Shown: piece by piece, positions 1-62,053 of the stretch
Position numbering within the stretch: position 1 is the stretch's first letter
How the letters are laid out: each line of letters begins with the position of its first letter
The notes under the pieces: model-generated
What the model saw: the letters and a program-made list of their open reading frames with translations, nothing else
The model's database searches: none
Told to the model about the DNA's origin: nothing
DNA from: Myxococcales bacterium
Lineage (GTDB): Bacteria > Myxococcota_A > Polyangia > Polyangiales > Polyangiaceae
DNA: 64,000 nt
NCBI GenBank assembly: GCA_947473045.1
Contig: CANJCO010000015.1
Coordinates: 1-64,000 of the forward strand
Reading direction: 5' to 3'
Position numbers and translations under genes: made by a program

Positions 1-219
1 GATGCTGTACGGAGGCCTCGCGCAGTACAGCAACGCCAGATGACGTCTCGATGGCTGACGAGCCGCGTTGCGGCGAGCGTTCAGCAGAGGTGCCCAGAGA
101 CGGAATCGCTCGATGCTGTACGGAGGCCTTGCGCAGTACAGCAACGCCAGATGACGTCTCGATGGCTGACGAGCCGCGTTGCGGCGAGCGTTCAGCAGAG
201 GTGCCCAGAGACGGAATCG
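1..219. repeat. 111-bp tandem repeat carrying the 3' end of tRNA-Phe
   Basis: Bases 1-108 and 112-219 are near-identical; the only difference I see is C19 against T130. The period is 111 bp. Each unit ends with the same 18 bp, which in the second copy (202-219) are the 3' terminal bases of the tRNA-Phe gene. Each unit also has an 8-bp perfect inverted repeat with a 14-nt loop (3-10/25-32 and 114-121/136-143). The window opens exactly on a repeat unit, so more copies may lie upstream. The arrangement resembles the E. coli tyrT (rtT) repeats, tandem units downstream of a tRNA that each repeat its last 19 bp. That comparison is inference. Confidence 0.9.
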
Positions 220-274
220 AACCGCCGACACGGGGATTTTCAATCCCCTGCTCTACCAACTGAGCTATCTGGGC
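202..274 (-). tRNA. tRNA-Phe (anticodon GAA)
   Basis: Read on the reverse strand, this 73-nt segment folds into a full cloverleaf: 7-bp acceptor GCCCAGA/TCTGGGC, D arm GCTC/GAGC, anticodon stem GGGGA/TCCCC around a loop with GAA, and a T arm with TTCGATT. The discriminator base is A. CCA is not encoded, since the next genomic bases read CCT, so CCA would be added after transcription. The last 18 nt recur 111 bp downstream in the neighbouring repeat unit. Confidence 0.96.
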
Positions 275-16310: not shown

Positions 16311-18368
16311 ATGACCGAGGCTGATCAACAGCGGATAAACGCACAACCGTCGGGCTCGCAGCAGGCGGCGCCCCGCGATCTGGGCGTCGGTCTTGGGCAG
16401 GTCACGCGCGCAGCGCTCGCCACCGAACGCCGAATGCGGCTGGTTCGCGCGCTCGCGTGGTCGGTGGCAGCCGCTTGCGCGGCCGTCAGCGCGGCCGTCG
16501 TCACGCTCGCGCTGCGCAAGACCGACGTCATCGCTGAGCGCACCGCGCGCATTGCGCTGATCGCGGAGGCCGGGTCGGTCGTCGCCGCCCTGATCGCCGG
16601 CTATCTGCGCGGCCTGTCGCCCCGGGCCGGCGCAGTCGCGCTCGATCGCCACCACAACCTCTCCGACCGCCTTTCGTCGGCGCTGTCGTTCGCCGCGCTG
16701 GCTGACTCGGAGCGCACCGCGTTCATGGACGTCGCGATCGAAGACGCCGTCGCAGTCGTTGGGTCTGTGCGTCCGGCGGCCGCCGCGCCGATTCGCGTCC
16801 CGCCCGGCGCGCCCCTTGTGGGTGTGCTGAGCGTGCTGCTGGTCGCCGTCGCGCTCTTCGAGGTTCGCGAGCACCATTTCGTCGCGCAGCGCACCATCGA
16901 CGCCGTCGAGGTCACCGCCGACGATCTCGACGCGATGCGCGAATTCCTCAAGGAGCAGCAGCTCACGCAGCAGAGCGACGAGGCGAAAGACGCCACCCGC
17001 GAGTTTAACCAGTTGGTCGAAGATCTCGCGGCCAAGCGGCTCGATCGCACTGAGGCCTTTCGCAAGATGCAGGCGCTCGAAGACAAGCTTTTGCAAGGCA
17101 GCGCGGCCGACCACAAGGCGCTCGAGGCCGCCATGAAGAAGGTAGGCGAGGAGCTGAAAAAAGCCGAGCTGACCAAGCCTGTTGGCGACGCGCTCGACAA
17201 CAAAAACCTCGTCGACGCTGACAAACAGCTCAAAGAGCTCGCGAAAAAGCTGCGCGAGCAGGGCAGCAAAATGGACAAAGCGCAGCTCGAAAAGATGCGA
17301 AAGGCGCTGCAAGCGGCGTCGCACGACACCGAGAGTCGCAAGGCCGAGCTCGACAAAAAACGCGACGAGCTGAAGCAGGAGCTCGACCTGCTCAAGAAAA
17401 AGCAGGAGGCCGCGCGCGACGGCGGCCCGCAAACTGAAGAGGAGCGCAATTTGCTCCAGAAAAAAGAGCGCGAGCTCGACCGACTCGGCGAAGAGGCCCG
17501 CGCTGCCGAGGCCGCGCAGCGCTCGCTCGACAAGCTCGACCACGATCTGCAGCAGGCAGCCGAAGACCTCATGAAAGATCTCGGCATGTCGGCCAGCGAT
17601 CTCGACGAGAGCGCCGAAGACATCAACCGCATGGCGCAGGAGCAAATGTCGCAGCAGGAAAAGGAGCAGCTGCGCCAAAAGCTTCAGGAGCTGCGCGAGA
17701 TGCTACGGCAGCAGGGGCAGGGCGGTCAGGGGCAGCAGGTCCGACTGCGCAAGTTCCAGCAGCGCGCACGCGGTCAGGGCGGTCAACCGGGACAGGGTCA
17801 GGGACAAGGCGGTCAGCAACCCGGCGAAGGTCAGGAAGGCCAGGGGCAAGGCCAGGGCCAAGGTCAGGGGCAAGGCCAGGGCCAGGGCCAAGGTCAGGGG
17901 CAGGGGCAAGGCCAGGGCCAGGGTCAGGGGCAAGGCCAGGGCCAGGGTCAGGGGCAAGGAGAGACCTGGGTGGTCGGGCCGAACGGTGAGAAGATCCTCA
18001 TGCTCAGCCGCGGTCAGGGTCAGGGTCAGGGTCAAGGTCAAGGGCAAGGGCAAGGGCAAGGCGGCCACGGCGCCGGCACCGGACACGACAGCAACGTTCA
18101 GGGCAAAGCCACCGCCCCCCAAATGGGCACGCAGGACACGCAGGTCGCCGGTCAGGACACCGGGCAGGGCGCCTCGCGCAGCGAAGTCATCGAAGGCGCC
18201 GCCGAACGCGGCTTTGCCGGCCGCGGGTACACCAAGGTCTACCGCGAGTATCACACTGTGGCCGAGGAGGCGCTCGGCAAGGACGAGATCCCCGGCGGTT
18301 ACCGATCTTACGTGCGCAGGTATTTTCAGCTGATTCGGCCGCGCGACGGAGCGCCGTCGGGCCAATGA
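16311..18368 (+). CDS. membrane-anchored coiled-coil protein with Gly-Gln repeat tail
   Basis: 685 residues. There are two or three hydrophobic segments: about 46-66, a weaker one near 85-103, and 165-185. A long charged coiled coil (about 205-455, Lys/Glu/Gln/Leu heptads) follows. Residues about 465-585 are a low-complexity Gly-Gln run, interrupted by a short non-repeat sequence (WVVGPNGEKILMLSR). The C-terminal 85 residues are globular and end in YRSYVRRYFQLIRP. It resembles the large membrane proteins (DUF4175-like) that travel with MoxR/DUF58/VWA genes. It is the first gene of that operon, 10 bp upstream of moxR. It probably forms an inner-membrane complex reaching into the envelope; the target is unknown. 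Confidence 0.85.
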   Translation: MTEADQQRINAQPSGSQQAAPRDLGVGLGQVTRAALATERRMRLVRALAWSVAAACAAVSAAVVTLALRKTDVIAERTARIALIAEAGSVVAALIAGYLRGLSPRAGAVALDRHHNLSDRLSSALSFAALADSERTAFMDVAIEDAVAVVGSVRPAAAAPIRVPPGAPLVGVLSVLLVAVALFEVREHHFVAQRTIDAVEVTADDLDAMREFLKEQQLTQQSDEAKDATREFNQLVEDLAAKRLDRTEAFRKMQALEDKLLQGSAADHKALEAAMKKVGEELKKAELTKPVGDALDNKNLVDADKQLKELAKKLREQGSKMDKAQLEKMRKALQAASHDTESRKAELDKKRDELKQELDLLKKKQEAARDGGPQTEEERNLLQKKERELDRLGEEARAAEAAQRSLDKLDHDLQQAAEDLMKDLGMSASDLDESAEDINRMAQEQMSQQEKEQLRQKLQELREMLRQQGQGGQGQQVRLRKFQQRARGQGGQPGQGQGQGGQQPGEGQEGQGQGQGQGQGQGQGQGQGQGQGQGQGQGQGQGQGQGQGQGETWVVGPNGEKILMLSRGQGQGQGQGQGQGQGQGGHGAGTGHDSNVQGKATAPQMGTQDTQVAGQDTGQGASRSEVIEGAAERGFAGRGYTKVYREYHTVAEEALGKDEIPGGYRSYVRRYFQLIRPRDGAPSGQ
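17704..18063 (+). repeat. in-frame hexanucleotide repeat tract coding (Gly-Gln)n
   Basis: Dense blocks of six-base units of the form GG(T/C/G)CA(G/A), best at about 17840-17959 and 18010-18063, encode consecutive Gly-Gln pairs. Within the first block a longer repeat of about 30-36 bp recurs several times. All units keep the reading frame. Such tracts slip easily in replication, so copy number probably varies between strains, changing tail length without breaking the protein. Confidence 0.9.
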
Positions 18369-61979: not shown

Positions 61980-62041
61980 TGTTCACACGCCTGAACACGC
62001 ATGTTCAGACGTCTGAACACGGGTGTTCACACGCCTGAACA
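61980..62041. repeat. three 18-bp palindromes at a 22-bp period
   Basis: Three sites of the form TGTTCA-N6-TGAACA lie at 61980-61997, 62002-62019 and 62024-62041, each 22 bp from the next. The central one is a perfect 18-bp palindrome; the outer two are identical to each other and slightly imperfect in the middle. A 22-bp period is close to two helical turns, so bound proteins would sit on one face. The array lies between two convergent genes, where an operator is not expected. Confidence 0.9.
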
Positions 62042-62053
62042 CGGCGCGCCGGT

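Follow-up and report, generated by a model that had tools for sequence, protein, structure and literature searches.

Hairpin units that copy the ends of tRNA and tmRNA genes in a myxobacterial order suggest the T-loop as an attachment point

The tandem array that lies behind tRNA-Phe at the start of the 64,000-nt stretch of DNA analysed here (the window) is part of a family of hairpin units that, in this order, sit on the 3' side of tRNA and tmRNA genes. A unit consists of the tail of the adjoining gene from C56 onward, the gene's own trailer, a four-nucleotide foot, and a conserved hairpin, with the next tail copy following at the 3' base of that hairpin. Compared across genes and genera, the units suggest an undescribed hairpin element for which the tRNA T-loop serves as attachment point. 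Mobile DNA favours the 3' ends of tRNA and tmRNA genes for docking. If the suggestion is true, a very small mobile unit would exist that has no genes and finds the T-loop by base complementarity, under a targeting rule that can be read, and it would provide a testable origin for the tyrT/rtT repeats of Escherichia coli. No description of these units was found in the open-access literature searched.

The tRNA-Phe array of the window

The window is the start of contig G000:C15, and its first features are listed in Table 1. A sequence-only reading of this DNA had described two near-identical 111-bp units, each with the last 18 nt of tRNA-Phe and each with a hairpin of 8-bp stem, and both descriptions are confirmed: TRF and a repeat search find two 111-nt units that are 99% alike, with one A/G as the sole difference, and both contain the stem TGCTGTAC/GTACAGCA. 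In the direction of the tRNA, the 18-mer CGATTCCGTCTCTGGGCA opens each unit (219-202 and 108-91), and since the longest piece of it elsewhere in the window is 10 nt, the copy is not a chance match. The array does stand beside tRNA-Phe, as had been proposed, but on its 3' (downstream) side and with the second unit cut by the contig end.

Table 1. Features of the tRNA-Phe locus at the start of the window
Feature	Position	Strand	Remarks
tRNA-Phe(GAA) gene	274->202	minus	Rfam tRNA 70.9 bits; C56 of T-loop = 219, T54/T55 = 221-220
Gene tail C56-A73, CGATTCCGTCTCTGGGCA	202..219	minus	Doubles as first 18 nt of unit 1
Unit 1, complete, 111 nt	109..219	minus	Tail, trailer with first hairpin, foot, conserved hairpin, GAG
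Unit 2, 108 nt, cut by contig end	1..108	minus	Last 90 nt = G000:C41:1-90
First trailer hairpin, GCTGAACGCTCGCCGCAACGCGGCTCGTCAGC	165..196	minus	Second copy 54-85; sequence not kept between loci
Foot, ACGTCATCTG	148..157	minus	Second copy 37-46
Conserved hairpin, GCGTTGCTGTAC / TGCGCAAGGCCTCC / GTACAGCATCGAG	109..147	minus	R1 match 157-99, 59.1 bits
Conserved hairpin, second copy, truncated	1-36	minus	R1 match 46-1, 39.9 bits
Tail copy after conserved hairpin, start of unit 2	91..108	minus	18/18 identical to tRNA

A genome-wide search of the 5.15-Mb assembly found the unit nowhere else except at the start of contig C41, which opens with 90 nt identical to unit 2 and then enters unique DNA. After the shared 90 nt, two paths are available, one into a further unit (GAGCGATTCC) and one out of the array (CCTGCC). 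Because the exact overlap ends at this choice between re-entering and leaving, it looks like an unresolved assembly branch, and the array likely holds at least three units, in keeping with the earlier expectation that more units would be present. At tRNA genes, arrays of this kind may cause breaks in short-read assemblies, as has apparently happened here. Directly after the last unit of the array (G000:C41 91-160) lies a long imperfect palindrome, GGTCGGGCAAGCGCGTTCTGGCGCCAGAACGCTCGCTTGATCGACC.

A family of units behind tRNA and tmRNA genes

The wider distribution of the unit was surveyed with R1, a covariance model built from 13 hairpins (alignment A1). Within the same order, R1 matches 33 of the 184 genomes scanned, and among 379 genomes sampled from the phylum under strict filters none was found outside that order, all six matching genomes belonging to it. 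The hairpin occurs 3' of tRNA-Phe, Met, Pro, Gly, Ser, Leu, Glu, His, Gln, or Lys or of tmRNA, in a total of 29 loci and 44 units; loci newly found by R1 include tRNA-Met, Gly, Ser, Leu, Glu, and Phe and the tmRNA gene in several genera. The first 7 nt of the copy of the unit's own gene tail are exact in 38 of the 44 units from these 29 loci, and at least 15 of 18 nt agree in 34, figures to be read with the fact that R1 includes about nine tail columns, so that a CRANNCC-like stretch is partly built in; the gene-specific tail letters, the length of the copy, and the adjoining gene are not. A tRNA scan of five genomes found the hairpin together with at least 7 nt of the gene's own tail in 12 cases, versus 0 of 1555 mismatched gene/tail pairs. 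The proposal that the repeats copy the tRNA 3' end is supported by the C56-A73 copies, and instead of a single duplication without relatives, a unit type is seen that recurs at many tRNA and tmRNA genes.

Some R1 matches lack a tRNA tail. Those in genome G047 and most of those in G086 are dispersed, were not linked to any tRNA tail, and are left out of the tRNA units. The genome of the window itself has three weaker matches of this kind (G000:C80 949-1014 and 4560-4610, G000:C121 183-247), which have GTTGACTGCG or GTTGACTCCG ahead of them and represent a dispersed, longer form of the hairpin that is also found in G086.

A unit search of the family located the core in genomes G108 and G109 beside tRNA-His, Gln, Pro, and Lys, where the hairpins are followed by the tail of their own tRNA (CGATCCCCGTCGGTCACCCCA behind His, CAAATCCCCCCTCCCCGACC behind Pro, and CGAGTCCCTCTCA behind Lys). 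At tRNA-His of G109 there are five units of 105 nt each, and the number of copies at the same gene differs between two congeneric genomes, one versus five at tmRNA and one versus five at tRNA-His. Across loci, units range from 86 to 203 bp in length, and among sister species their presence is sporadic. In G034, the same kinase gene flanks tRNA-Phe, behind which stands a single homologous unit whose tail copy, CGATTCCGTACCGGCGCA, has decayed; downstream of tRNA-Phe in the other relatives inspected, the sequence is unrelated. The tRNA-Gln copy of G109 still reads CGAATCCCTGC, a fossil of the sequence seen in the G108 tRNA, and the tRNA-Pro array of G109 lies about 3.4 kb from its gene, from which inserted DNA has apparently displaced it.

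Much of this variation could be accounted for by ordinary tandem duplication, whereby the hairpin stalls replication near a T-loop-like sequence and slippage or unequal crossing-over copies the segment from tail to hairpin, with no dedicated enzyme or function. Near-identical tandem units such as the two in the window, homogenised units in general, freely variable copy number, and tail decay in old single copies are all in keeping with such a process, which the boundary and foot evidence given below nevertheless leads us to regard as unlikely.

Units were searched for in phages and plasmids with no match, and a T-loop hairpin pattern gave none in IMG/VR. A strict core pattern had four matches in GTDB r220 contigs and two in IMG/VR, none near a tRNA, and these were judged to be chance matches.

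Junction, foot, and hairpin

In nearly all units the tail copy starts at C56, and the bases that precede it vary (GAG, GGT, GCT, AAG, GCG); T54-T55 of the gene are not copied together. The foot, comprising the four bases 5' of the hairpin, reads N-T-C-G or, with a bulge, N-T-C-T-G, and is the reverse complement of C56 R57 A58 N59 of the unit's own gene. In the window, ATC(T)G is thus the reverse complement of C56 G57 A58 T59 of tRNA-Phe. By gene, Phe and tmRNA have the foot ATCG, Met has GTCG, His (G108) and Gln have TTCG, Lys has CTCG, a tRNA-Leu with CAAC has GTTG, and a Pro with CAAA has TTTG, so that the complement of N59 is seen for all four bases (T to A, A to T, C to G, and G to C). Between sister species, the foot pair of tRNA-His has changed on both sides, from T-A59 in G108 to A-T59 in G109 or the reverse.

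When feet were extracted automatically and each combination of genus, gene, and tail was entered once, the foot proved complementary at all four bases in 19 of 24 collapsed loci, versus a mean of 6.6 and a maximum of 15 in 20,000 permutations, relatedness being only partly corrected. A stricter rule for the bulge, with the same partial correction, gives 15 of 24 versus at most 12 in shuffles, and a version with hand-set feet fits in 27 of 35. The candidate that the foot is a copy of the 5' strand of the T-arm was rejected at tmRNA, Met, Lys, and Glu, where no reading but the reverse complement of positions 56-59 fits; such a copy is a possible partial contributor at other genes. One and the same C56 boundary at many genes and in many genera, coupled with a foot that matches the unit's own T-loop, is not expected from random slippage.

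The hairpin retains an inner motif, AC-TNC-G..C-TCC-GT, while its tip varies from three bases to nested hairpins. Likeness between hairpins is 0.749 within a genus across genes, 0.671 across genera, and 0.655 for the same gene in different genera (some long tips were hand-trimmed, and the pairs are not independent); hairpins thus group by genus and not by gene. Likeness within a genus across genes is as expected if hairpins move or are converted between loci while tail and foot adapt to each site, and tandem duplication would require such movement or conversion in addition to explain the hairpins common to different genes of one genome.

Within the stem, 12 pairs have changed on both sides, and there are 154 such cells versus 41.8 in shuffles, in an alignment that was fitted to the model. 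Compensatory changes of this kind, seen also at the same gene in sister species (Pro-cgg, His), are what would be expected if the repeats were transcribed together with the tRNA or tmRNA and had a role in 3' processing or as small RNAs similar to rtT, and the units do share the strand of the gene. A host function could also lie behind changes that preserve structure at orthologous loci. The small-RNA or processing-signal idea, already put forward in the sequence-only reading, is weakened because in several relatives the hairpin lies beyond an apparent intrinsic terminator, namely a T-run at the tmRNA and some tRNA-Pro and Gly loci, and the sporadic presence of units among sister species also counts against it; we consider a structured RNA quite unlikely as the main explanation. 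A T-run resembling an intrinsic terminator stands between gene and hairpin in 9 of the 44 units, and in G108 and G109 this position at the tmRNA gene is taken up by an inverted repeat, GC-rich and with a T-run (GGCCCC..GGGGCCTTTTT), which is repeated in the units. Given this terminator-like sequence ahead of it, the hairpin would mostly not be co-transcribed at the tmRNA loci, which favours a role in DNA there; at other loci a role in RNA is possible.

The hairpin also appears to occur in a second setting. Several T-loops in the tRNA arrays of G021, G108, and G109 are interrupted between T54 and T55 by a 34-nt hairpin, GCACTCCGGCCTTCGGCCTCCGTGGGCCTTCGGC, whose inner motif is similar. Of 10 such places, 6 yield a recognisable tRNA (Glu, Arg, Pro, Ile, or Gln) once the hairpin is removed in silico, and some copies join the halves of different tRNAs, as recombination between copies would. 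We infer that the 34-nt hairpin belongs to the same element family, and the interruption of T-loops by such a hairpin speaks further against a structured RNA. Densely packed tRNA genes, many of them unusual or broken, form arrays in G108 (L207, L216-L219), G109 (L164, L160), G021 (L283), and G034 (L297).

A possible DNA-level element and its closest parallels

The explanation to which we give most weight, at slightly less than an even chance, is a DNA-level hairpin element, probably multiplied at the T-loop by recombination of a folded single strand in the manner of IS200/REP or integron systems; set against slippage, RNA function, and island footprints taken together, recombination stands at about even. 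In its favour are the own-tail copies from C56, the matched foot, the stem covariation, the likeness of hairpins by genus, the variable copy number at one gene, the hairpins inside T-loops, and the T-runs ahead of some hairpins. Under this scheme, units would multiply at the DNA level, with hairpin and foot folding as single-stranded DNA to form a recombination site. A strand would be cut at the T-loop sequence located at the 3' base of the hairpin, and a putative enzyme would duplicate the unit or re-insert it at the T-loop of the same gene, the hairpin occasionally moving to a different tRNA or tmRNA gene. The gene would stay intact because each unit restores C56-A73. The fuller proposal, of gene-less mobile hairpin cassettes that attach at the T-loop, target C56-N59 through the four-base foot, regenerate the gene with their tail, build tandem arrays, and insert directly into T-loops in tRNA-array islands, is held to be doubtful. 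At chromosomal tRNA genes no clean pair of empty and filled sites was seen, neighbouring species differing by decay, inserted DNA, or replaced flanks.

In IS608 and some REPs, a tetranucleotide 5' of the hairpin helps to choose the cleavage site by complementarity (PMC3733652, PMC8266576). The present units resemble REP elements/REPtrons and the ends of IS200/IS605 elements in being short palindromes, and their foot recalls the guide tetranucleotide of these systems (PMC8266576). They differ in that the tetranucleotide varies with the gene, matching its T-loop, and in being tied to tRNA and tmRNA tails; the invariant GTAG or CGTC tag of the IS200/IS605-REP group is not present, and no cognate Y1 transposase gene flanked by the hairpins was found. 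A Y1 transposase (PF01797) is absent from eight unit-carrying genomes, including that of the window, and in other genomes no unit hairpin lies within 1.5 kb of a Y1 gene, so that this enzyme is unsupported as the mobiliser.

In integron arrays each cassette ends 3' in an attC hairpin, the base of which pairs with the start of the next unit. The arrays described here are similarly composed of short units, each ending in a hairpin whose base lies at the junction and is paired with the start of the next unit; unlike integrons, they have no cassette genes, their junction falls at T55|C56 and not at G^TT, and the attC boxes RYYYAAC and G^TTRRRY were not found in the aligned units.

Genomic islands offer a third parallel. 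The ssrA-GIs of Dehalococcoides have tandem boundaries built of copies of the last ~20 bp of the gene (PMC3146451), and the arrays share with them the repeated copies of a gene end, whereas the 86-203-bp units are gene-less, do not extend over kilobases, contain a conserved hairpin, and are too short to hold an integrase gene and cargo between the tail repeats. The units might be read as footprints: nested att remnants would have been left by an integrase whose crossover lies in the T-loop, the hairpin being the arm of its attachment site. T-loops of tRNA and tmRNA genes are known attachment sites, detached 42-48-nt tails of tRNA-Phe occur in many relatives, and the displaced tRNA-Pro array of G109 would also fit. 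The detached tails of the relatives begin near the anticodon, however, and not at C56, units of this size are too small for an integrase, and the foot follows the gene and not an integrase; we regard island footprints as decidedly unlikely. Apart from the arrays, these detached 3' halves of about 42-48 nt make it look as though islands in this order often attach at tRNA-Phe, and on contig G000:C96 a tRNA-Ser(TGA) is followed by a duplicate of its own 3' half from the anticodon stem on, resembling an att duplication.

The parallel with E. coli tyrT drawn in the earlier reading holds for layout and fails for homology to rtT. At tyrT/tyrV (rttR, rtT), as in the window, tandem units lie 3' of a tRNA, each with a copy of that tRNA's 3' end starting inside the T-loop, an arrangement that would also suit a structured RNA; in strain MG1655 there are three tail copies of 19 nt, placed 178 nt apart and starting at A58. 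The junction is A58 in E. coli versus C56 here, and one E. coli locus is compared with many tRNA and tmRNA genes. Rfam gave nothing above its cut-off at the window locus except the tRNA, and R1 found no match in the MG1655 tyrT repeats, its best score (9.7 bits) falling on the tRNA itself. The tyrT repeats may represent an independent case of the same T-loop logic and are not relatives by the tests made here. By eye, the rttR units in the MG1655 region NC_000913 1285500-1288500 contain AAGGTTCGA, from the T-arm of tRNA-Tyr, followed by a hairpin-rich stretch and then the tail from A58, and the unit can be viewed as a T-arm whose T-loop carries an insertion.

Away from the array, the window contains short tandem repeats at 17836-17959 and 61980-62044, respectively of a 6/12-bp GGCCAG type and of a 22-bp unit, TGTTCACACGCCTGAACACGGA.
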